Under the pieces are notes generated by a model. It made no database searches, had not been told where the DNA came from, and saw only the letters and a list, made by a program, of their open reading frames with translations. Shown here piece by piece: positions 34,285-46,132 of a stretch of 64,000 bases of DNA. The position numbers and the translations under genes are program-made. Source of the stretch: Spirosoma montaniterrae (GTDB taxonomy: Bacteria > Bacteroidota > Bacteroidia > Cytophagales > Spirosomataceae). Position 1 is the first letter of the stretch. The number at the start of each line of letters is the position of its first letter. The stretch spans positions 2,790,001-2,854,000 of the forward strand of contig NZ_CP014263.1 in NCBI RefSeq assembly GCF_001988955.1. Reading direction: 5' to 3'.

Positions 34285-35988
34285 TTAACTATGCCGAACA
34301 ACACGCCCGTGCCGGTATCGCATCGCCATAAATACAGACAGCCCGCCAAGTAACCCAACCACAGCCAGCAAAGACCAATTTATAGCCGACTCCTCCGGTA
34401 TTTCGCTGATGGTCAGTAAGGTATTTATTTTCTGCTTAGTCAGAATTTGCCGCTTGCCGCCCGTCCAGGTGACGATGATAGAATCGATAACCGCAGTATT
34501 TCCCAGGCCAAAGTGCGCGATAGTCGAGTTTTGCGAGATATGGCTCGATGCGCCCCCGTCGATTTCGCGCAGCATCCGCCGACCGCCCACTACCACCTCA
34601 ATCCGCGAACCGATACCATGCGATTCGGCCTGTAAGCCCTTCAGGGCAATTTTCAGCCAGTTGCCTTTGGCCCCATCGTTTCGGTAGAAGTGCGTAACTG
34701 AAGGTACCGGATAGTCGAGTACGGGTTTTTGGTTCACCACCAGCAGGTCGAGGTCGCCGTCGTTATCGGCATCGAACGTTACCGAGCCGCGCCCAATGCC
34801 GTAGTCTTTTAGTCCATGCAGGTGCGCGTTGTCCTGAAACTGCGGCTGAGCCGGATTGCGGTTTCCCACGTTTTCAAAATAGAAGTCGGCCATCGGTACG
34901 CAGTTGGGGTTCAAATCGCCGTTGGCAACAAATAAATCAAGGTCGCCGTCATGGTCGAAATCGGCGAAATTGGCTCCCCAGCTAATGCCAATCCAGGTCA
35001 TACCCATCTCGCGGGTTTTATCAAGATACGGCTTACCCGGTCCCTGACTCACCATCATACGGTTGAAGCGGATATTCGTAAAATAGTAATCCAGCAGCCC
35101 GTCGTTGTTGACGTCGGCCACTGCCGTACCCATCGAGTTAATTGGCAGGTCGAGTTTCAGTTCAGGAGCGACGTCGCGAAATTCCCGGTCAGAAAACTGG
35201 TTTTGCAACAGCAGGTTAGGCGTCCGTTTATAGCCAAAATCATGGTTTACCATCAGGTCCTGGTCGGCATCGTTGTCGTAATCGGTAAAGATTGCTCCGA
35301 AGCCGAACCCCTTGTGTGTCAGTCCGTAATCGTCATACAAATCCTCGAACCGCTTGCCGCCTTTGTTGATAAGCAGATAGCCCTTTGCCGTTTGCGTAGC
35401 ACTAACGATGGTGGCGTCGTTGATATACGTCAGGTTGCCGGTGAATGCGTTAAAGTAGTTGCCTACATACAGATCGGGATAACCATCGGCGTTAACATCA
35501 CCAAAACTTGCCCCAGTACTGAACGCAATCAGTTGATCGAGACCATATGCCTGCGTCGCATCGCGGAAGGTGCCGTTGCCGTTATTAAGCAACAATAGAT
35601 TCCGGGCGCGGGGAATGGGCTGTTTTTTACCCTTCGTTGTAATCGTCGTCACAAACAAATCGACCCAACCATCGCGGTTCACGTCGGCGGCTGCTACGCC
35701 CTGCGTCACGAATCCGCGCGTCACGCTTAGGCCAGATTTCTCATAGACATTCGCAAACTGGCCTTTGCCGTTGTTGCGGTACAGCACGTCGTCGTTCATG
35801 CCGCCGGTGATAAACAGGTCCTGATCGCCATCATTATCGTAGTCGAAAGCGCAGGCTCCTCCGCCAAACATGCCTTCAAATACCCGAAACTGGTGGTTGA
35901 CACCTACTTCCTGTGTTACGTCTTTAAACAGGGGCTGGGCAAATAGGGGAGCCGATAAAAAGCAGAGAATGAAGAGTTTAGAGAGCAT
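34285..35988 (-). CDS. CRTAC1/UnbV beta-propeller protein, membrane-anchored
   Basis: 567 residues with a signal peptide (about 1-17). FG-GAP/VCBS repeats fill about 25-420, with Ca-binding loops of the form D-x-D-x-D-G-D-x-D-L (DYDNDGDQDLFITGG, DVNRDGWVDLFV, DFDHDGDLDLFVANG). An ASPIC/UnbV domain follows (about 440-525: IALKGLQAESHGIGSRIEVVVGGRRMLREIDGGASSHIS, HFGLGN). The C-terminus has one membrane helix (about 537-556) and a basic tail, so the propeller is anchored with its bulk outside. It is the last gene of the SusCD-CRTAC1-haloperoxidase operon and is a shorter relative of the 37.4-40.8 kb protein. Confidence 0.88.
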   Translation of the reverse strand: MLSKLFILCFLSAPLFAQPLFKDVTQEVGVNHQFRVFEGMFGGGACAFDYDNDGDQDLFITGGMNDDVLYRNNGKGQFANVYEKSGLSVTRGFVTQGVAAADVNRDGWVDLFVTTITTKGKKQPIPRARNLLLLNNGNGTFRDATQAYGLDQLIAFSTGASFGDVNADGYPDLYVGNYFNAFTGNLTYINDATIVSATQTAKGYLLINKGGKRFEDLYDDYGLTHKGFGFGAIFTDYDNDADQDLMVNHDFGYKRTPNLLLQNQFSDREFRDVAPELKLDLPINSMGTAVADVNNDGLLDYYFTNIRFNRMMVSQGPGKPYLDKTREMGMTWIGISWGANFADFDHDGDLDLFVANGDLNPNCVPMADFYFENVGNRNPAQPQFQDNAHLHGLKDYGIGRGSVTFDADNDGDLDLLVVNQKPVLDYPVPSVTHFYRNDGAKGNWLKIALKGLQAESHGIGSRIEVVVGGRRMLREIDGGASSHISQNSTIAHFGLGNTAVIDSIIVTWTGGKRQILTKQKINTLLTISEIPEESAINWSLLAVVGLLGGLSVFMAMRYRHGRVVRHS

Positions 35989-36020
35989 ACTTGGTTACGG
36001 TATCGGTGCGCTAATATAGG

Positions 36021-37430
36021 TTATGGAACTGGCGCAACACGCCAGGGCAACCCGTTGATATGTTCGCCAATGGTTTTTCCTTTTTCCAGCCCGGCCTGAT
36101 TATCCTGCGGGGTATGAATACCGCCGTAAAAGCGCGAATCAGCGGTTTCCTGCGCCACCTGCCAGAACGAACTAAACCGCCGAACCTTGAACTCGGTGTT
36201 GCGGAGCCGGTCGCGCGGGCGTCCGGCGTGGGCACTGTCGGTCAGGGCGAAGCGGTCGCCGTAGAGGTTGGTCAGTACGGTAGCGGCTGCGGCTGCCTGA
36301 ATGGCGTGGCCCGACGGGAAAGCTGGAAAAGGAGGTTCCGGCCAGAATGAATCCCACTGAGGGTCAATGTATTGCGGGATAAACGTGTTGGGGCGTTCGG
36401 TAAAAAACTCGTATTTCCACTTCCAGCAGTTGATAAATGCATCGGCCACGGCCATACCCACACGGGCGTAGGTTTCGGCGCACTTCACGAGCGAAGGCCG
36501 GGTTTTGCGAATGGCAAGCGTCGCTAAATAATACGAATGACCGGGGGGCGTAAACGTTTCGTCGGGGTCGTCGCTCCACCAGATAGCACATTCTTTTTCA
36601 GCCTGCGTCAGCGTGCGTTCTTTATCGTAGACCTGCTTAAACTGTCGGTAATAAGCCGACGTGGGCAACGTATCGTAGGGAATAAAGGTTGGGGCCGAAA
36701 TCTGCGCGTCGGAAGCCAGAAACGTCCGGTTCTTTCCCCAGTGCGGATGCAGCGGGTAATGGCTGAACGACTGCGCGTAAAGGGGTGGTTTCCAGCAGCC
36801 TACATGTGTAGGCTGCTTCATGGCTTTGTCGAAATTTTTCAGGTAGCCCCGATGTCCGCCATCGGTTTTCGACCACGCAAAAATGCGCTCGGCCACAGCC
36901 CGCCCAAACGCCACCGACCGGCTGAGTTGCGCGTCGTTGGCTACTGCCAGCCGTTCCTGTACGGCCCGTTCGAGCGAATCTATTTTTAGTTTGTTGGCAT
37001 CCGACGTTTGGTTATACAGGCTTTTGAGAATGTATGCCTGCCCGGCGTTCAGTGCCGCAGGCCAGTGATACGGCTTCCCGGCTTCGGGTTGTGGCAACGT
37101 TGCCAACCCGTTCACCTGCCCCGCCAGCGACTGATAATCAGCACTTTCCGCCACTACCGACTCATACATCGTCAGTCCGATATAGCCCAAGCAGCGCGAC
37201 GCATAGGTTGGCGAGTTAGCTGGCGTATTTTTGGTTATATACAGGGTCATATCGGCCCATGCCGTTGCTACGTCCACGTCTTGCAGGGGCGGTTTGGGGG
37301 CCGAACAGCCGAGAGTAAGGGTGAGTAAAACCCCACCCCAACCCCTCCCCGTTAGGGAGGGGCTTTTAAAAAAGCTTACGCGAGTAAGCCCCTCCCTAAC
37401 GGGGAGGGGTTGGGGTGGGGTCATTTCCAT
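36021..37430 (-). CDS. Vanadium-dependent haloperoxidase (PAP2 superfamily)
   Basis: 469 residues. The vanadate/phosphate-site motifs are complete: K-x6-RP (Lys339...Arg346-Pro347 in KYEFFTERP), PSGH (372-375, His375 acid/base) and SR-x5-H-x3-D (SRFYGGIHTPQD, Ser432-Arg433, axial His439). Vanadium haloperoxidases oxidise halides with peroxide; the same fold gives acid phosphatases, so the reaction is inferred from likeness. A lipobox-like LTLGC follows about 41 residues, but the N-terminal codons are those of a 36-bp inverted repeat, giving a PPQPLPVREG...SLTGRGWGG stretch and a very short hydrophobic core. The ATG at 37424 overlaps the upstream stop as ATGA; 37430 is the other start. Confidence 0.88.
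   Translation of the reverse strand: MEMTPPQPLPVREGLTRVSFFKSPSLTGRGWGGVLLTLTLGCSAPKPPLQDVDVATAWADMTLYITKNTPANSPTYASRCLGYIGLTMYESVVAESADYQSLAGQVNGLATLPQPEAGKPYHWPAALNAGQAYILKSLYNQTSDANKLKIDSLERAVQERLAVANDAQLSRSVAFGRAVAERIFAWSKTDGGHRGYLKNFDKAMKQPTHVGCWKPPLYAQSFSHYPLHPHWGKNRTFLASDAQISAPTFIPYDTLPTSAYYRQFKQVYDKERTLTQAEKECAIWWSDDPDETFTPPGHSYYLATLAIRKTRPSLVKCAETYARVGMAVADAFINCWKWKYEFFTERPNTFIPQYIDPQWDSFWPEPPFPAFPSGHAIQAAAAATVLTNLYGDRFALTDSAHAGRPRDRLRNTEFKVRRFSSFWQVAQETADSRFYGGIHTPQDNQAGLEKGKTIGEHINGLPWRVAPVP
37330..37421. repeat. 36-bp perfect inverted repeat at haloperoxidase start
   Basis: 37330-37365 and 37386-37421 are perfect reverse complements around a 20-base spacer, made of CCCCACCCCAACCCCTCCCC-type sequence. 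The outer end of the right arm overlaps the last base of the upstream stop codon. The repeat is read in frame in the haloperoxidase gene, and its RNA would form a very stable hairpin just after the start codon. Confidence 0.92.
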
Positions 37431-40400
37431 TGATACGCCACCAGTTTCTTCTCATTAATCCCAAATAAAAGCGTGTTGTTAACCGGCACCACGGCCCGCA
37501 CGTCGCCTTTCAAAGCCAGACCCGACCGGCGTTGATCGACATACTGGAAACCGCCCCGTCCGTTGCCTTTCAGCAGTACACCATAGTTGGCGTCCATTTT
37601 ACCGAGCCTGATTTTAGCGAAATTAGTATTGCCACACAATAGCACGTCGGTAAGGCCGTCGCGGTCGAAGTCCATCGTCGTAATCGTATGTACGGGCGCG
37701 TACTGCGCCTGTTCGGGCAGTTTCGCCACCGTAAAGCGGCCCGACGCGCTGCTCAGAAAACAACTCGTTTGCAGGTGATTGGCCGTCAGATGCTCCGCTT
37801 TGGCGAGCGCGTTACGGTCGAAAATCTGGTCGAGCGTTTGGTCGGCGTAGCTTTCGTAGTTTGGGTAACGGGTGCGGTAGCCGTTTATCTGATTCAGGAG
37901 TTCGTCGCGGGTGACGTAGGGATAGCTTTTGCCCTGTATGTACGCACTCAGAACCGATTCAACCGAACCGTTTCCGTCAAAGTCAGCGTAGTGCATCTCA
38001 ACGGGCTGTTTATCAGCGGCTTTCATCTGCGAGTTGTCGCCCCAGTTGCCCACCAGCAGGTCGGCTTTTCGGTCGTTGTTGAGGTCGGTGGCGGCAATTT
38101 TATTCCACCAGCCCCGATAGGGCTTCTCGAAATACGTGCTTGTCTTATCGTTTAGTTTACCGCCTTCCAGCGCGAACACCGTCAGGGGCATCCACTCGCC
38201 TACTACCACCAACTCGTTGCGCCGGTCGCCGTTCAGGTCGGCCCAAACAGCGTCTGTCACCATGCCAACCTGACGTAGGCCGGGAGCAAAGGTTGCCGTT
38301 TGGTCGGTGAACTGCGGAGGACCGCCCCGCCCCTTGCTGTTGTTGATGAGCAGGTAGCTGTTGGGCGTTTCGGGATAACGGCCCGGCACCAACCGACCGC
38401 CCACAAATAAGTCGGGCCGACCGTCGCCGTTCACGTCCTGCACAGCCACGCACGAATTACTGACGCGCAAATCGGGCAGGGCGTTCGGGCTGTGGCTAAG
38501 ATTACCCCGGCCATCGTTCAGGTAAAGTCGGTCCTGTAGGCGGGGGTCGTTGGGGGCCATGTCGTGGTAGCCGCCCGTTGCCACGTACACATCGAGCGAA
38601 CCATCGCCGTTGGCATCGAACAGGGCCACCGCGCAGTCGTGATAGCCCCGGTCAGCGTCTAAAGCAGGTGATTTCTGCGGTACAAACCGCCCGCCTTTTT
38701 GTTGAACATAGACCATCGCTGGCTGTTGAGCCGAAGCACCCACGAACAAGTCTTCCAGCCCGTCGCCAGTCAAATCACCTTTCGCCATACACGGGCCGCT
38801 GTGCGAGAGTTGGTTAGTCAGCAGCGATTGCCGGTAAAAATCATTGATGTCCTGTACCGGGTTTGCGTAGGCCAATGGGGCAGCTACTTCCATCAGTAGC
38901 GGTTTCGGTGTTGAAACGGTTTTAGGTTGCTCGTTTGCCTTCGTTTCGTCGGCTTCCAATACCTGATTGGCCGCTACACTCCTAAAGGTCTGCTGCGTTC
39001 CCAACGGCCATATAATCCGCACCGAGTCAAGCTGTTTCGCCTTACCCAGTCCAAAATGCAGCACAGGCGAAACTGCCGACAGATACCCCCGCGCCAGCGT
39101 CTGCGTCTGGGTTTGCTGCGTACCGTTGGCATACACTGTCACCCGCGCTCCGATGCCCTGCGTGTTGCCGCCTTTCCCGCGCAGTTTCACCTGCAAAAAC
39201 GGATGCTTTGTTTGCGCGTTGGCCTCGTTGCGGTACACAAATGCAGGCTGATTGATGTTATTGACCATCAAATCCAGATCGCCATCATTATCAAAGTCGG
39301 CGTAGGCAGCACCATTGCTGTTGGAGGGACGATTCATGCCCCAATTCTGTGTTTGATTGGCGAACGAAGCCCCGCCCTCGTTCCGAAATACGTAGTTAAC
39401 TACGTTCGATGCGGGCATGTGGTTGATGATTTCGAGTACATCCTGCCGTTGAAGCCGCCCCCGGCTTTTGGCGAAATCGTCCATGTACTTGATAAAATCC
39501 AGATTCGTATAATCGTGCAGGTAGCCGTTGCTTACGAAGAGGTCTTTCCAGCCATCGTTGTCGAAATCGGCCAGCAGCGCGGCCCAACTCCAGTCGGTAT
39601 TGGAAACGCCCGCCTGTTGCCCCACCTCCGAAAATACCGGCACCCTACCCCTTGCCCCTTCAACCCCTACCCCCGTATTCAGGTGCAGCATGTTCCGCAT
39701 GTATTGGTAATACAGCCCGCTCCGCACGTTGAGATCGAACTTGGCAAAGTTATCAGGAGCCATCAGCAGTTTTTGCCGCCGGTTATCTTCAGGCAGCATG
39801 TCGAGCGTGAAAATATCAGCCCGCCCGTCGTTATTCACGTCGGCCACATCATTACCCATTGAAAACTGGCTTGTGTGGCCGATACTGTTCGGGAGTTCGT
39901 TGGCAAACGTGCCGTTGCGGTTGTTGATGTAGAGATAATCGGGTACTGTATAGTCGTTCGAAACGTAGAAATCGAGCCAGCCATCGTCGTTTATGTCGGC
40001 CATACCCAGCCCCAGGCCGTAGCTCAGGGGAGAGCCGTTGATGCCAGCCTGCTGCGTCACGTCGGTAAAACGGCCCGCCGTTTGTTTGTAGAGCCGCAAT
40101 CCACGCTCGGGGTCGTCGGTACGAAGCAGTTCGGCGGTACTCGCTTCGTTCAGAATGGGCAGATTTTTGGGATTATGATTCAGCAGCAGCATGTCCAGGT
40201 CGCCGTCGCGGTCGTAGTCGAGGAAATACGCCTGATTGCTGAAGCCAGGACTGTCGAGACCATACTGGGCAGCCTGTTCGGCAAAGCGCGGTACGCCGTT
40301 GGCATCGTTGCCCTGATTTACGAAAAGCTGATTGACGCGCTTTTCGGGCGGCATGGCTCCCGAATAGCACACATACAAGTCCAGTTTTTCATCGGCGTTG

Positions 40401-40810
40401 ATATCAACAACCGTTACGCCCGTTTTCCAGGGACCGGGTCGCCCGCCCGCGCCCGATGCGTCGGTAACGTCGCGAAACTGCCACGGTTCGCCGTCGCGAT
40501 TGCCCTGATTCAGATACAGCCTGTTGTCAGCCATATTGGCCGTAAAATACGCATCGATGCGCCCGTCGCCGTTGAAATCGCCCGTTGCTACGCCCCCGCC
40601 GTTATAGAAGTACTCATACAGTAAGATGTTGGTATTCAGCCCCTCGTCCAAGCGATTCTGAAAGGCGATGCCCGTTTGTTCGGGAGTTAGCAACGTGAAA
40701 AGCGGAGGACCGGAGACCGGTTGCGTTTCGGCTCGTTCATCGGTTTTCTGACAGGCAAAAAGCCCCCAGATGAGCAAGCCAATCAACACACAGCGATTAC
40801 AAAGATTCAT
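37421..40810 (-). CDS. Large CRTAC1/UnbV beta-propeller lipoprotein
   Basis: About 1129 residues from the ATG at 40810 (MNLCNRCVL), lipobox LFAC (Cys about 20). Two sets of FG-GAP/VCBS repeats (about 55-500 and 670-1000) carry many D-x-D-x-D-G-x-x-D loops (DFNGDGRIDAYF, DVNNDGRADIF, DLTGDGLEDLFVGAS, DVNGDGRPDLFVGG), and an ASPIC/UnbV domain lies between them (about 545-620: VKLRGKGGNTQGIGARVTVYANG, LHFGLGK). Predicted surface-anchored, calcium-binding propeller. It lies between susD and the haloperoxidase gene, with four bases of ATGA overlap to the latter. Near residue 390 a Gly/Val/Arg-rich loop is encoded by a C-run repeat-like sequence. Confidence 0.9.
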   Translation of the reverse strand: MNLCNRCVLIGLLIWGLFACQKTDERAETQPVSGPPLFTLLTPEQTGIAFQNRLDEGLNTNILLYEYFYNGGGVATGDFNGDGRIDAYFTANMADNRLYLNQGNRDGEPWQFRDVTDASGAGGRPGPWKTGVTVVDINADEKLDLYVCYSGAMPPEKRVNQLFVNQGNDANGVPRFAEQAAQYGLDSPGFSNQAYFLDYDRDGDLDMLLLNHNPKNLPILNEASTAELLRTDDPERGLRLYKQTAGRFTDVTQQAGINGSPLSYGLGLGMADINDDGWLDFYVSNDYTVPDYLYINNRNGTFANELPNSIGHTSQFSMGNDVADVNNDGRADIFTLDMLPEDNRRQKLLMAPDNFAKFDLNVRSGLYYQYMRNMLHLNTGVGVEGARGRVPVFSEVGQQAGVSNTDWSWAALLADFDNDGWKDLFVSNGYLHDYTNLDFIKYMDDFAKSRGRLQRQDVLEIINHMPASNVVNYVFRNEGGASFANQTQNWGMNRPSNSNGAAYADFDNDGDLDLMVNNINQPAFVYRNEANAQTKHPFLQVKLRGKGGNTQGIGARVTVYANGTQQTQTQTLARGYLSAVSPVLHFGLGKAKQLDSVRIIWPLGTQQTFRSVAANQVLEADETKANEQPKTVSTPKPLLMEVAAPLAYANPVQDINDFYRQSLLTNQLSHSGPCMAKGDLTGDGLEDLFVGASAQQPAMVYVQQKGGRFVPQKSPALDADRGYHDCAVALFDANGDGSLDVYVATGGYHDMAPNDPRLQDRLYLNDGRGNLSHSPNALPDLRVSNSCVAVQDVNGDGRPDLFVGGRLVPGRYPETPNSYLLINNSKGRGGPPQFTDQTATFAPGLRQVGMVTDAVWADLNGDRRNELVVVGEWMPLTVFALEGGKLNDKTSTYFEKPYRGWWNKIAATDLNNDRKADLLVGNWGDNSQMKAADKQPVEMHYADFDGNGSVESVLSAYIQGKSYPYVTRDELLNQINGYRTRYPNYESYADQTLDQIFDRNALAKAEHLTANHLQTSCFLSSASGRFTVAKLPEQAQYAPVHTITTMDFDRDGLTDVLLCGNTNFAKIRLGKMDANYGVLLKGNGRGGFQYVDQRRSGLALKGDVRAVVPVNNTLLFGINEKKLVAYQWK

Positions 40811-40885
40811 GGGATATACAAGAAACAATCAATCCCCAAGATACATCCTGGGGATTGATTTTGAAGCGGTTATGATAAAAAGAAA

Positions 40886-42781
40886 TCAATACCCCGGATT
40901 CTGAACCAGTTTGGTGTTCCGGTTGATTTCGTCGCGACTGATGGGTCGATAATACATCTTATCGTTCCAGCGTCGGGTTTCGTTCTGCGTATTGTCGGCC
41001 ACCGTGTAGGTATAGTTGTACTTCGAGCGGTCGAACCGATATGGCACATTAGGCGTGGCTCCCGGCCTGAGCGTGGCCCGAACGTTGATCGACTTGATAC
41101 CCCGGCCTACGGTTGTAGGTGCAATCAGCCACCGGCGGGCATCGTGGTAGCGGTGTTCCTCGTATTGCAGTTCAATCCGGCGTTCGTTCTGATAGCGCGC
41201 CAGCAGCGCAGCCCCCGACTCGGTAGTGGGCGGCATACCGGCCCGCGCCCGAATCCGGTTGAGCCACAGCCGGGCTTCGGCCTCCTGCCCCGTATTCAGG
41301 CAGGCTTCCACGTAATTCAGCACGTTTTCGGTTTGCCGGAGGAACGGGAATGGAATCACCTGCGCACTCGACTGATTGTCGCGCAGAGCCGGGTCGTTAT
41401 CGATAAACTTGCGGGTATAGTAACCCGAACGAGTGCCGTTCCAGTTTTCGACCGCCGATTCGCGCGTATCAACGCCGTTAATCGTACCACCCTTCCCGTC
41501 GTCGTAGAAGCCCGTTTGTATCTGGTTGGCGGGATCGATGCCTGCTACAGCGGGCGGACGCGGTTTCCAGCCCGTACCATCGAACATAATGCTGGCGTAG
41601 AAACGCGGGTCGCGGTTGTCGTAGGGCGCGGCTTTGTGCGTGGCGTTATTCCAGTCGAACTTAGAGCCGTCCATCATTTCAAAGTCGTCGACTAAGTTCT
41701 GAATGGGCGTGTTCCCGGCCCAGTTGTTATACCCGTTGGGGCCGTTGTTGATGCCGTAGTGAATACCTCCCAGCGGCCAGTTGCTTTCCTGCGTAAACAG
41801 GGGCGTGTGGGTGCGCTGCCAAATCAGGTCAATGGCACCGGCAGGGTCGGCAGCGGCACTCTTGCCGCCCATTGCAATGGCATTGTAGTTGGCGCGGCCT
41901 TCGGCAGCCGTTACGGGTGCGGCCAGATTCAGTTTATAGCCTTTCCCGGCAGCGGCTGCTTCATCGAGCGCGGCTTTGGCAGCAGTGCGGGCAGCCTGCC
42001 ACCGTGATGCCTGATCGCCCGACGTATAGGCCACCAGTTCGGGGTTTGAAAACGACGCCATCACCGAAACCTTAGCGCGGACTTTGGCCGCATCGTGCAA
42101 ATCGCTGGCTGCGTAGGTCAATACGCGGGCTTTCAGGGCCAGCGCGGCCAGCCGATTAGTGCGGCCATCTTCGAGGGTTTTGCCTTTCAGCAACTCGGCA
42201 GCTTTATCCAAATCAGCTACAATAAACTTTATGCAGTCGTCATAGCTGCTCCGGGCCACGCTGTAATCTTCGTTCAGGCCGTAGGGCTTGCTGATAAGCG
42301 GCACCCCACCATAAAACCGGACTAATTGCTGGTAATAATGCGCCCGCAAAAAGTGTGCTTCGCCCATCAACTGATCTTTCAGCGTCTGGTTGGTAAACGT
42401 AGCTTTGGGCAACTGCTCAATGGCGATGTTAGCCTGCCGAATGGCAAGGTACATGTTACCCCACTCATACGTCGGACTCTGCCAGGCTAAGTTGCCGGGT
42501 GTTTCAGTACCTTCTGTAAAGGTATTGATGTTTCGCCCGGCGTGGGTAAACATGGCTTCGTCGGTAATTGCCGACAAGCCCTGCTCTTCAAAACCAGCAT
42601 AACCAAGATAGGAATACACGTTGAAGACAAATGCCTGCGCCAGTGCGCCATCGGCCCAGGTAGCGTCTGCCGAAATTCGGTCCAGCGGTTTGGTCTCCAG
42701 AATATTATCATTACAGGCCGCAATAATCAGCGTCGAACTGAGGGCCAGCACCGATAATCGGGAAATGATCAGTCGTTTCAT
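40886..42781 (-). CDS. RagB/SusD family nutrient-binding lipoprotein
   Basis: 631 residues with lipobox IIAAC (Cys about 23) followed by NDNILETKPLDRISADATWADG, the usual SusD start. TPR-like helices and the SusD_RagB domain follow (GEAHFLRAHYYQQLVRFYGGVPLISKP; RYQNERRIELQYEEHRYHDARRW; late KMYYRPISRDEINRN). SusD lids the SusC barrel and binds the substrate on the surface. It starts 14 bases after the SusC gene and is followed by the CRTAC1 lipoprotein, so one operon is likely. Confidence 0.96.
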   Translation of the reverse strand: MKRLIISRLSVLALSSTLIIAACNDNILETKPLDRISADATWADGALAQAFVFNVYSYLGYAGFEEQGLSAITDEAMFTHAGRNINTFTEGTETPGNLAWQSPTYEWGNMYLAIRQANIAIEQLPKATFTNQTLKDQLMGEAHFLRAHYYQQLVRFYGGVPLISKPYGLNEDYSVARSSYDDCIKFIVADLDKAAELLKGKTLEDGRTNRLAALALKARVLTYAASDLHDAAKVRAKVSVMASFSNPELVAYTSGDQASRWQAARTAAKAALDEAAAAGKGYKLNLAAPVTAAEGRANYNAIAMGGKSAAADPAGAIDLIWQRTHTPLFTQESNWPLGGIHYGINNGPNGYNNWAGNTPIQNLVDDFEMMDGSKFDWNNATHKAAPYDNRDPRFYASIMFDGTGWKPRPPAVAGIDPANQIQTGFYDDGKGGTINGVDTRESAVENWNGTRSGYYTRKFIDNDPALRDNQSSAQVIPFPFLRQTENVLNYVEACLNTGQEAEARLWLNRIRARAGMPPTTESGAALLARYQNERRIELQYEEHRYHDARRWLIAPTTVGRGIKSINVRATLRPGATPNVPYRFDRSKYNYTYTVADNTQNETRRWNDKMYYRPISRDEINRNTKLVQNPGY

Positions 42782-42794
42782 AGGTAATAATAGG

Positions 42795-45700
42795 TTAGAA
42801 GCTTACGGATAAACCAGTGTTGATAACGCGGGTTTGCGGATACACCTGCCCGGCACTGTTGACCGTTTCGGGGTCGAAAATATTCTGAGCCGCAATCGTG
42901 AACACGTTCAGGCCGTTGATATACACCCGTGCCGATCCAAGCCCGGCCCGACGCACCAGTGCGGTAGGCAAACGGTAGGCGAGTTCGATGTTTTTCAGTC
43001 GCACGTAGTTTTTGCTCAACAGGAAGAACGTGTTGTTGCCGAAGTTACCGCCCGTGTAGTACGTATCGCCCCGGCTTGCCAAACGGGGGTATTTGTCGCT
43101 CGGGTTATCGATGGTCCAGCGGTTGTCGTGATTCCATTTCAGGTAATTACCAATATCCCCCGATTCGGTCTGAAGCCGGAAAGCAGCCCCCGTTGCACCC
43201 TGAAACAGGATGTTCAGGCTGAAGTTTTTGTAACTCAGGTCGATAGTCGAGCCAAAGTTGAACGTCGGCGTGATGTTCTTGTCAAGCCGAACGGCATCGT
43301 CAGCTGTAATTTTGCCATCGCCGTTGTAGTCCCGAATGCGCATATCGCCCGGCAGCAGTTGGTTGGTTACGCCACTATAGTCGATACGATTTTCGGCAAT
43401 GGACGCCTGATCGCGGAATGCGCCTTCTGACTCAAATACCAGATATGCACCAATGGGCTTGCCTTCCATCCGCTGCCATTGGGGTGCGCCGGGCACCTCG
43501 TCCATGAAGTTCACCCGGTTGCGGGCGTAGCCGCCATTGATACCGGCTTTGAGTTTCCAGTCGGGCGTGGCAATGGCGTTGTAGTTCAGCGTAAACTCGA
43601 AACCCTGATTGGTCACGATACCAGCGTTGGTAGGTGGCAACAGTGTGCTGATTCCCGACGACGCAGGCGTTGATCCCGTCTTCTGAATCAGGATTTGGTC
43701 GCGCCGGTTGTTGAAATATTCCAGAATCAGGTCGAATTTATTGTTCAGGAAAGCTGCGTCGATACCAACGTTGAAGTTATTGGCCCGTTCCCAGGTAAAG
43801 TTGGGGTTTGCCAGTACCGTTTCGCGCAGCGTGTTTACCACGTTTCCGCCAACGGGGTACTGCCCAAAGCTATAGGACGACAAAAAGGCAAATTCCTGTA
43901 AGGCTCCGTTGTAGAACACCTGATCGTTCCCCATCTGACCGTAAGATGCCCGCAGTTTCAGGTAGTCGACACCTTTAATGTTGAAGAATTTCTCGTCGCT
44001 GATGTTCCAGCCCACCAGCAAGCCAGGGAAGAAGCCAAATCGACGCGACGCCGGGAAGATATATGAACCGTCGTACCGCCAGATAAATTCAGCTAAGTAC
44101 TTCTCCCTGAAGGCATACTGCACCCGGCCATAATACCCCAGACGGGTGCGGTTGTAGGCACTACCATCGGTGTTCTGCTGAATGGTTCCACCAGCAAACA
44201 ACTGGTCGATAGCGGGCGAGATGAAGTTCCGGCGGAAGGCCGTGAAAAATTCACCCTGAAAGCGTTCCTGCGTTACACCCGCCAACGCGCTGAACTGATG
44301 CCCGTCGCCCAGCGAAAAGTCGTAGTTTAGCAAGGCAGTCAGGTTGGTGTTGAGTACCGACCGATGACCTTGCAGTAAACGCGGGTCAGTGAAGTTCGAG
44401 CGAACGGCTCCAACCAGTTTCGGCGTGCGGCCATCGGCCTCGAACGTGATGCGGTCCCAGGTGTAAAGCTGCCAGGGCGTTTGCCAGACCTTCGTGGTGC
44501 CCGACGTTTTATCTGCCGACCCCATCAGTGTGAGTTTCAGCCCTTTCACCCACGGGTTGGTAATTTCTACGCTTCCATTCGATTGCAGATAATCGGTTGG
44601 TTCGTTGACATAACCCGTAGCATCGGTCGTAATCACAATCGGGTTCTGGCCGTTCTCAATATCGGGGCCGGGCAGCCCGTTGGGCCACACTGCCGGTTCG
44701 CCCGGACGACCACGCATCAGCATTCGGAAAATAGCCCCGGAGCCTTCGGTTGGTAGCCGACGCTGTTCCCGGCGAGCCGCCACGCCAATAAACGTTTTGA
44801 TATACGGATTGATCGTAGCGTCGATATTCGTGCGAAAGTTGTACTGCTTGTAGTTGGTAGCAGAGTTTTTATACACAGCATCCTGAAACACGTAGCCCAC
44901 CGAAGCGAAGTAGCGAATCGCATCTGAACCACCTGAAATCGACAGATTATGCCGCGATTGAGGTGCCCATGTTCTGAAAGCCGCACCAAACCAGTCGGTA
45001 TTTGGAAAACCCCACGGGTCAGATCCATCGGCATATTTACGGATTGACTCAGGGCTGAAATTGGCGTTGATGGTGCTGACACCAGACGTTGGCGAATCGT
45101 AAGTGCCGGTGGTGCGAATGGCCGTTGAAGCCGCCTGCCACTCACTGGCCGGAATCGACTTGTAGATTGGCAACTCGTTCATGATGTTGGCATACTCCAC
45201 GGCGTCCGACATCTTCGGAATAACCGACGGCTGGCCCCAGCCCTGATTAAATTCATAATCGATGACAGGTTTGCCGGCTTTGCCGCGCTTGGTGGTCACG
45301 ATGATGGCCCCGTTAGCAGCCCGCGCCCCGTAGATAGCTGCCGAGGCATCTTTCAGCACCGAAATCGAGCCAATATCCTGCGGAGCCAGCCGACCCAGCC
45401 CGCCATCGCGGTCAGGAATACCGTCGATAACAATCAGCGGGCTGCTATTACCAAGCGTGTTCGTACCGCGAATGCTGATTTGCGCACCATCGCGACCAGG
45501 TTCGCCCGTGGTCTGAATAACTACCAGGCCCGGCAACCGACCGGCCAGCGAGTTCGACAAATCAACAGCAGGCGACTGCACGAGACGATCTCCCTGTACG
45601 GCTACAACCGCCCCGGTTACGGTCGCTTTTTTCTGCGTACCATAGCCCACTACCACCACCTCGTCGAGGGTAGAAGCACCGGGTTTCAGCGAAACATTGA

Positions 45701-46034
45701 TGGTTGTGCGCGTACCAACGGCCACTTCCTGCGGCTGGTAGCCTACGAACGAAAAAACAAGCGTAGCTCTGGCCCCTTTCACGTTCAGCGTAAATTCGCC
45801 TTTGCCGTCGGAGGTTGTACCATTGTTAGTGCCTTTTTCCACCACGCTTACACCGGGCAGATCGGCCCCGTTTTCGTCGGTAATCTTCCCTTTTACGACG
45901 GTATCGAGGGGAGCTGCCTGAAGGCTCAACGTAACAAGCGGTATCAGCAGACTTAACATCAGCCATTGCAGTAACCGGCCAGGCGTACCGAGACAGCGTA
46001 AACTGCCCCGGCTTCGGGAACGTAGAATTTGCAT
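42795..46034 (-). CDS. SusC/RagA family TonB-linked outer-membrane receptor
   Basis: 1079 residues. A signal (about 20-42), a CarboxypepD_reg-like domain (about 46-130: VVKGKITDENGADLPGVSVVEKGT, GTTSDGKGEFTL), the TonB box region TLDEVVVVGYGTQKK, a plug (about 140-240: ISIRGTNTLGNSSPLIVIDGIPDRDG, SISVLKDASAAIYGARAANGAIIVTTKRG) and a barrel ending in GLSVSF. It imports a bulky substrate, likely a glycan or other polymer fragment, with the SusD partner. The start is supported by a full promoter at 46102-46132. The operon continues into CRTAC1, haloperoxidase and CRTAC1 genes. Confidence 0.96.
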   Translation of the reverse strand: MQILRSRSRGSLRCLGTPGRLLQWLMLSLLIPLVTLSLQAAPLDTVVKGKITDENGADLPGVSVVEKGTNNGTTSDGKGEFTLNVKGARATLVFSFVGYQPQEVAVGTRTTINVSLKPGASTLDEVVVVGYGTQKKATVTGAVVAVQGDRLVQSPAVDLSNSLAGRLPGLVVIQTTGEPGRDGAQISIRGTNTLGNSSPLIVIDGIPDRDGGLGRLAPQDIGSISVLKDASAAIYGARAANGAIIVTTKRGKAGKPVIDYEFNQGWGQPSVIPKMSDAVEYANIMNELPIYKSIPASEWQAASTAIRTTGTYDSPTSGVSTINANFSPESIRKYADGSDPWGFPNTDWFGAAFRTWAPQSRHNLSISGGSDAIRYFASVGYVFQDAVYKNSATNYKQYNFRTNIDATINPYIKTFIGVAARREQRRLPTEGSGAIFRMLMRGRPGEPAVWPNGLPGPDIENGQNPIVITTDATGYVNEPTDYLQSNGSVEITNPWVKGLKLTLMGSADKTSGTTKVWQTPWQLYTWDRITFEADGRTPKLVGAVRSNFTDPRLLQGHRSVLNTNLTALLNYDFSLGDGHQFSALAGVTQERFQGEFFTAFRRNFISPAIDQLFAGGTIQQNTDGSAYNRTRLGYYGRVQYAFREKYLAEFIWRYDGSYIFPASRRFGFFPGLLVGWNISDEKFFNIKGVDYLKLRASYGQMGNDQVFYNGALQEFAFLSSYSFGQYPVGGNVVNTLRETVLANPNFTWERANNFNVGIDAAFLNNKFDLILEYFNNRRDQILIQKTGSTPASSGISTLLPPTNAGIVTNQGFEFTLNYNAIATPDWKLKAGINGGYARNRVNFMDEVPGAPQWQRMEGKPIGAYLVFESEGAFRDQASIAENRIDYSGVTNQLLPGDMRIRDYNGDGKITADDAVRLDKNITPTFNFGSTIDLSYKNFSLNILFQGATGAAFRLQTESGDIGNYLKWNHDNRWTIDNPSDKYPRLASRGDTYYTGGNFGNNTFFLLSKNYVRLKNIELAYRLPTALVRRAGLGSARVYINGLNVFTIAAQNIFDPETVNSAGQVYPQTRVINTGLSVSF

Positions 46035-46101
46035 AGAGAAGTAAGGTTAGAGGTTGGCAATAAACTGACAATCAACGTATATACATCGAGTAGCAGCCTC
46101 T

Positions 46102-46132
46102 CAAATATAAACACAGGTGCTGCGGTTCACAA
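46102..46132 (-). promoter_or_regulatory. susC operon promoter
   Basis: On the minus strand TTG (46130-46132), a 20-base spacer and TATATTTG (46102-46109) form a complete Bacteroidota promoter. Transcription would begin near 46096, about 62 bases before the ATG. No sigma/anti-sigma gene adjoins this SusC. Confidence 0.65.

Follow-up and report, generated by a model that had tools for sequence, protein, structure and literature searches.

The locus analysed here raises the question of what a SusCD uptake pair does when the enzyme encoded beside it is a vanadium haloperoxidase-family protein in place of a glycoside hydrolase. It lies in a stretch of 64,000 nucleotides (nt) of Spirosoma montaniterrae, referred to as the window, to which all coordinates apply; loci and genomes of the surveys are labelled L and G, respectively, followed by a number. 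Five adjoining open reading frames (ORFs), all on the minus strand between 34285 and 46034, were assigned to families with Pfam and NCBIfam, and all five were recovered at the places and with the families given by a first-pass annotation made from the sequence alone. The five-gene order is real, strongly conserved and unreported in the literature searched. With somewhat more confidence than doubt, the genes are interpreted as a conserved, utilisome-like SusCD uptake cassette in which a surface vanadium haloperoxidase stands in place of the glycoside hydrolase. The parts of the cassette and a candidate promoter are as follows, with protein lengths in amino acids (aa):

42795..46034, minus strand: SusC/RagA TonB-linked outer-membrane transporter, 1079 aa (TIGR04056, 867.7 bits; no STN domain found)
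40886..42781, minus strand: SusD-like lipoprotein lid, 631 aa (SusD_RagB, 173.8 bits)
37421..40828, minus strand: long FG-GAP/UnbV propeller lipoprotein, 1135 aa from TTG, 1129 aa from the first ATG (40810)
36021..37430, minus strand: vanadium haloperoxidase-family protein, putative lipoprotein, 469 aa (PAP2, 39.9 bits)
34285..35988, minus strand: short CRTAC1-like propeller, 567 aa, with a signal-peptide-like start and a C-terminal membrane helix
46104..46132, minus strand: candidate sigma-70-like promoter by sequence match, TTGTGA-17-TATATT; the stretch also reads TATATTTG

The susC and susD homologues are adjacent, as in a SusCD polysaccharide utilisation locus. The nearest solved chains by sequence were 8aa4_A for SusC (expect value (E) 1.2e-102) and 3qnk_A for SusD (E 3.4e-47). 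FG-GAP_3 and UnbV_ASPIC domains were detected by Pfam in both propellers, and no carbohydrate-active enzyme was found among the eight ORFs scanned at the locus. Gaps of 13 nt separate SusC from SusD, 57 nt SusD from the TTG start of the long propeller, and 32 nt the haloperoxidase from the short propeller. The long propeller and haloperoxidase genes overlap by 10 nt, or by 4 nt from the second ATG, which gives the ATGA overlap described at first pass together with the small gaps. The length of 1129 residues reported there for the propeller lipoprotein is that counted from the first ATG. The operon proposed in the same annotation is well supported by sequence comparison, with order, strand and small gaps recurring in distant genomes. 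Its promoter had been called clear; the sigma-70-like match at 46132-46104 was found, but such matches hardly exceed those in shuffled sequences (13 versus a mean of 9.7, standard deviation 3.0). The TATATTTG of the promoter stretch fits what we take to be the Bacteroidota -7 motif. The guanine plus cytosine (GC) content of the cassette (55.0%; window 52.0%) and its GC at third codon positions (0.62-0.66, versus 0.67 for recG) give no hint of a foreign origin.

Conservation of the order was analysed in three sets of genomes. Relatives were searched for the haloperoxidase in 79 genomes at E <= 1e-20, with few candidates scored per genome and with some congeners represented by incomplete assemblies. 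Matches were obtained in 57 of the 79, and only two enzymes were near that of the window, with identities of 75% in G042 and 63% in G048, both from other genera of the family. The best matches in 35 genomes of the same genus were 54% identical to the window enzyme, which was rejected as an orthologue of these common congeneric enzymes on account of this difference and of its separate group in the tree described below. G042 has the same neighbours as the window cassette. In G048 the propeller, the enzyme and the short propeller are present, and the contig ends within the long propeller. In a draw of 395 Bacteroidota genomes, again with few candidates scored per genome, 81 carried a haloperoxidase at E <= 1e-40. 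A short propeller of at least 57% identity was present in four of the 395 (the window genome, G042, G253 and G374), and all four have the whole five-gene order; G253 and G374 belong to other families of the class. Short-propeller matches of 46-48% were obtained in G141 and G234.

Named genomes were scanned with a profile of five subfamily enzymes (alignment A3), and the best 80 of 116 relatives were used. The loci came from Fibrella, Emticicia, Arcicella, Flectobacillus, Jiulongibacter, Flavihumibacter, Ferruginibacter, Neolewinella, Maribacter, Allomuricauda and Flagellimonas, among others, genera which we take to fall in the Cytophagales, Chitinophagales, Saprospirales and Flavobacteriales. 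SusC, SusD, long propeller, haloperoxidase and short propeller were consecutive on one strand in 47 of the 80 loci. Many of the other 33 are interrupted by contig ends, and in ten of the 33 SusC, SusD, enzyme and short propeller stand in line with no long propeller between them. Eight of these ten have a long propeller nearby, either divergent upstream (L183, L192, L204, L208, L213) or downstream (L188, L189, L205); none was seen near L186 and L187. Among 55 loci with at least 9 kilobases (kb) before and at least 2.5 kb after the enzyme, all five parts were within reach in 51, the misses being L187, L196, L206 and L212. Locus counts are not independent events, since several rows are close relatives and some genomes apparently occur twice. 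L136/L227 and L146/L242 each seem to stand for a single genome, which reduces the 51 cassette rows to 49 distinct ones; L227 and L242 also appear to be identical with the genomes G374 and G253, respectively. The search for the same order in relatives, suggested at first pass as a check, was thus positive. Being kept in relatives, the order is beyond chance, and chance proximity is ruled out by the recurring order and gaps.

Median gaps at the four junctions in relatives were 10, 74, 2 and -13 nt. Across 44 cassettes and the window, mean pairwise identity was 64% for SusC, 69% for SusD, 56% for the long propeller, 61% for the enzyme and 60% for the short propeller. The pairwise identity matrices of the five proteins correlate (r 0.71-0.93), which is in part due to shared host ancestry. 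Since SusD and SusC are the best kept of the five parts, the cassette is apparently one orthologous system with one fixed ligand. No published description of the five-gene cassette was recognised among the matches listed for the literature searched, and the gene set is described in none of the available portions of PMC9296495, PMC5064120, PMC11871015, PMC8115612 and PMC7618045.

The enzyme contains all vanadate-site motifs noted at first pass, namely K339-x6-R346-P347, P372-S373-G374-H375 and S432-R433-x5-H439. K339, R346, S373, G374, H375, R433 and H439 are present in all 51 cassette rows, including the window, as are the second-shell residues W336 and F368; a few of 143 other haloperoxidase rows lack single site residues. 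Residues 371-375 read F-P-S-G-H in the cassette, and in the other rows the first position is Y in 100 of 143 and the second T in 64 of 143. At the corresponding site, the alignments give Y-P-S-G-H for the Curvularia chloroperoxidase and Y-T-S-G-H for the Zobellia iodoperoxidase. The latter is also the closest solved relative by sequence (E 2.1e-51, residues 71-458), the fungal chloroperoxidases following from E 0.002 upwards. With the Pfam N-terminal model VCPO_N, the window enzyme scored 21.2, under the model's cut-off of 29.3. An AlphaFold model of the enzyme (predicted local distance difference test (pLDDT) 82) has the haloperoxidase fold, with the Zobellia iodoperoxidase as its best Foldseek match. 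All 17 solved chains at E <= 0.001 were vanadium haloperoxidases or homologues, and acid phosphatases appeared from E 0.015. As judged from sequence and predicted fold, the haloperoxidase assignment of the first-pass annotation is the better reading. An acid phosphatase is the weaker one on both counts, and the activity is not thereby rejected.

A putative lipid-anchor cysteine, Cys42, was found in 35 of 35 rows of the subfamily alignment A6. The hydrophobic stretch before it scores 1.68 in the window versus a median of 2.83 in relatives (34 of 47), as located with a home-made lipobox pattern which is too crude to count lipoproteins and was used only for this comparison of hydrophobicity. In a FastTree tree of 164 rows, the 18 cassette enzymes formed one group with a support of 99. 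The next-nearest rows are without a propeller, and two of them, L044 and L046, have SusC and SusD. Close kin of the cassette enzymes near SusC (and SusD) and with no propellers were observed at L044, L046, L047 and L050, an arrangement that is a possible intermediate form. A stand-alone haloperoxidase group of the genus, with no SusCD or propeller in the same-strand chain, is formed by L009 and by congeners such as L048, L049 and L051-L057.

The beginning of the enzyme gene in the window carries one further feature:

37330..37421, minus strand: palindromic repeat of 92 base pairs, with 36-nt arms 100% complementary and 20 nt between them

The repeat starts at the base right after the ATG of the ATGA overlap and supplies, in frame, roughly residues 4-34 of the enzyme. 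The enzyme frame reads through the repeat, and by eye no further in-frame ATG, GTG or TTG was seen ahead of Cys42. A genome search with the repeat gave 82 matches at 41 places, and the junction RNA is predicted to form a very stable hairpin, with -92.5 kcal/mol versus -49.2 for shuffles. Where the propeller and enzyme genes of relatives meet, an overlap of 4 nt is seen more often than any other value (12 of 47). The repeat has rewritten the N-terminus of the enzyme in the window genome; less enzyme may be made or exported there, and no sign of enzyme loss was seen.

In the long propeller, the UnbV domain (558-624) is flanked by FG-GAP repeats on both sides, FG-GAP_3 being matched in eight stretches, and a CRTAC1 match covers residues 479-624. 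The model of the short propeller (pLDDT 87.7) matched murine CRTAC1 (9etn) over its length with E 1.5e-33, a template modelling (TM) score of 0.73 and 22% identity; with an FG-GAP propeller followed by UnbV/ASPIC, the protein belongs to the CRTAC1 family. Further fold matches were aldos-2-ulose dehydratase, N-acetylglucosamine-binding fungal propeller lectins, integrin heads, among many propellers. A C-terminal hydrophobic or membrane stretch is present in all 45 short propellers of at least 500 aa (of 47 in total). In the alignment it is mostly followed by a basic tail, and the start appears signal-peptide-like by eye. Such a start together with a C-terminal membrane helix suggests a protein anchored in the inner membrane, with its domain in the periplasm. 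The surface capture and import proposed at first pass are likely for the SusC/SusD pair, the long propeller and the enzyme, and less likely for the short propeller. The propellers had also been proposed as adhesins or scaffolds, which found no direct support, the fold neighbours of the short propeller including integrin heads and sugar-binding lectins alike. Among the best 7999 candidates, at least 1417 protein clusters matched the short propeller at E <= 1e-80. Ten UnbV genes are present in the window genome. Its two SusCD/haloperoxidase operons account for four of them, and for three others the coordinates, read by eye, place a SusD match on the same strand at a distance of about 5 kb or less.

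The second of these operons (L010), one of the operons of a sister haloperoxidase group, has the order SusC-SusD-FG-FG-haloperoxidase, and its enzyme is 34% identical to that of the cassette. The same arrangement was found again within the genus and in other families, and the phylum draw contained it together with variants. Relatives of the L010 operon were observed, for example, at L102-L105, L108-L110, L114 and L121, and GH65 follows in several (L010 and L102 shown). L147 and L180 were left out of the cassette rows despite the same-looking order, because their enzymes belong to the sister group and a low score was obtained for the last propeller. A first survey had covered 152 haloperoxidase ORFs from 144 sources, chosen for strength and genus spread, so that its counts are not frequencies: same-strand chains contained a propeller in 60 of 152, SusC plus SusD in 38 and both in 36. 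The SusC label of this survey may include other TonB receptors, and profiles were rebuilt because the weak first round missed SusD genes. Propeller-haloperoxidase pairs were also observed elsewhere in the phylum (L166-L169, L178), one of which (L167) has a PaaA/PaaC-like neighbour.

Of 155 chain neighbours, 89 were scanned, taken from propeller-haloperoxidase chains of every kind. The families found included GH65 (9), GyrI-like (8), MFS (5), ROK (4), PfkB (4), SSF (4) and trehalase (2), for example GH65 at L102 and trehalase at L157. A sucrose-phosphorylase-like gene at L151 and a fructokinase-like gene at L123 were both below the NCBIfam cut-offs. The absence of a glycoside hydrolase, as claimed at first pass, is true of the eight window ORFs but does not extend to some sister-group operons, in which GH65, trehalase and sucrose-phosphorylase-like genes occur. 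These sugar-catabolic neighbours point to a sugar-type substrate and suggest, as far as gene content goes, that some members of the sister group use disaccharides.

Upstream of the window-type cassette, 42 of 46 neighbours were scanned, leaving out three short ones and a near-duplicate. They included ten GntR, eight Peripla_BP_3 (sensor domain) and six FecR genes, as well as six acyl-CoA dehydrogenases and four lycopene cyclases, which indicate that much of the neighbourhood is unrelated. In cassettes preceded by FecR, SusC carries an STN domain in three of four tested (L184, L220 and L245; not L229). Perhaps one cassette is subject to two control modes, FecR with an STN-containing SusC versus GntR/sensor regulators. 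Directly after the window cassette, genes for an extracytoplasmic function (ECF) sigma factor, a FecR-type anti-sigma factor and a TonB receptor follow in a row on the same strand (34264-29806). They are probably a system of their own, since the cassettes of L042, L136 and L146 are not followed by an ECF gene; one is located near the cassette end in a few named loci, e.g. L251 and L257. The place after recG is occupied in three congeners by two SusC/SusD pairs without an enzyme match, by an opposite-strand SusCD and by unrelated genes. The two pairs are those of G008 (L263, L265), 49-53% identical to the window's and one of them cut by the stretch end; no haloperoxidase match was found in the G008 stretches read after recG. 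This place is a variable site and not evidence of an insertion event.

For the cassette as a whole, the following mechanism is proposed. The long double-propeller lipoprotein would capture a specific substrate, probably oligosaccharide or glycoside-like. This link to sugars is drawn from the GntR and Peripla_BP_3 neighbours together with the GH65, trehalase, sucrose-phosphorylase-like, ROK and PfkB genes of the sister group. The haloperoxidase, anchored beside the long propeller, would generate hypohalous species from hydrogen peroxide (H2O2) and halide, and these could oxidise, halogenate or cleave the captured substrate. SusC and SusD would import the product, and the short CRTAC1-like protein would act on the periplasmic side from an inner-membrane anchor.

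Several points weigh against this mechanism. Two of the 17 Foldseek chains are NapH3 (8cxl), whose title names a rearrangement as the reaction catalysed; other chemistry thus occurs within this fold, and the fold alone is no proof of halogenation. Identity between the enzyme and the solved iodoperoxidase amounts to only 29-31%. The sugar-catabolic genes are mainly those of the sister group and were counted only in chains with a haloperoxidase, and many of the genes that directly adjoin the window-type cassette are of housekeeping type or variable. In the window genome, the repeat insertion may lower or redirect the enzyme.

The alternative that survives best, though we consider it unlikely, is halogen or peroxide handling and not nutrition: surface oxidation of iodide or bromide would consume H2O2 or trap halogen, and SusCD would import a halogenated carrier. 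Besides the iodoperoxidase as nearest solved relative, this is favoured by Arenibacter, in which iodine uptake involves H2O2 and at least five homologues are present (PMC5064120, available portion), and by the Zobellia iodoperoxidase vIPO3, which is upregulated on a brown alga (PMC9296495, available portion). GntR/sensor-type regulators, however, adjoin several copies of the cassette. Moreover, the cassette is not confined to marine genera but is found also in genera that we take to be of freshwater type.

A low probability is likewise assigned to a phosphatase in a phosphorus-scavenging SusCD system, which would dephosphorylate a captured organophosphate at the surface and import the rest. 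Haloperoxidases and PAP2 phosphatases share their active site, and PAP2 is the Pfam match of the enzyme. According to the title of 3bb0, a vanadium-free chloroperoxidase can dephosphorylate, and SusCD systems with phosphatases (PusCD) are described for Flavobacterium in the available portion of PMC8115612. The ranking of the Foldseek matches, with haloperoxidases and their homologues well ahead of the acid phosphatases, and the invariance of W336 and F368 in the cassette rows argue against a phosphatase, and no phosphate-metabolism family was found among the 25 commonest families of the scanned neighbours. That the enzyme or the propellers are mere neighbours of a SusCD pair, the parts having no function in common, is very improbable in view of the same order and small gaps in 47 of 80 loci from what we take to be several orders, even though no haloperoxidase match accompanies the G008 pairs in the stretches read after recG and SusCD pairs and haloperoxidases of the family are also found apart.

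Kept together in several orders and with SusD at 69% mean pairwise identity, the five-gene cassette ties one haloperoxidase subfamily to one uptake system and apparently one ligand, which brings the role of this subfamily within reach of growth, binding and knockout experiments. Should the enzyme replace a glycoside hydrolase, the cassette would be an oxidative branch of the SusCD strategy in Bacteroidota, which would bear on halogen cycling and on how resistant organic matter is degraded. More tentatively, and with doubt prevailing, halogen-oxidising utilisomes may constitute a widespread, undescribed SusCD class in which peroxide-driven hypohalous attack at the cell surface takes the place of hydrolysis and propeller receptors lie outside as well as beneath the outer membrane. 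Such a class, if real, would give this subfamily, one of many haloperoxidase-family groups in Bacteroidota, a role in foraging.

Among known systems, the levan and dextran utilisomes of Bacteroides thetaiotaomicron consist of SusC2D2 with a surface glycan-binding protein and a surface glycoside hydrolase. The cassette resembles them in its SusC/SusD core and adjacently encoded surface lipoproteins, and its nearest solved SusC, 8aa4, is that of the dextran utilisome (PDB code, PMC7618045, available portion). The long propeller occupies the gene position where surface glycan-binding proteins often stand. In contrast to the utilisomes, the surface enzyme is of the haloperoxidase family, an FG-GAP/UnbV propeller is found at the place of the binding protein, and a CRTAC1-like membrane protein is added; a utilisome-like complex is predicted from gene order and the conserved putative anchor cysteine of the enzyme. 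With the vanadium iodoperoxidase of Zobellia galactanivorans (4cit, 4usz), the window enzyme shares the vanadate-site residues, homology over residues 71-458 and, in the model, the fold, but it is about 30% identical and has FPSGH instead of YTSGH at the catalytic histidine. The short propeller has the fold and the UnbV/ASPIC domain of CRTAC1 (cartilage acidic protein 1, 9etn), but is bacterial, 22% identical and extended by a C-terminal membrane helix. Like the cassette, the PusCD operons of Flavobacterium combine SusCD with enzymes other than glycoside hydrolases; these, in contrast, are phosphatases and phosphodiesterases induced by low phosphate, as described in the available portion of PMC8115612.

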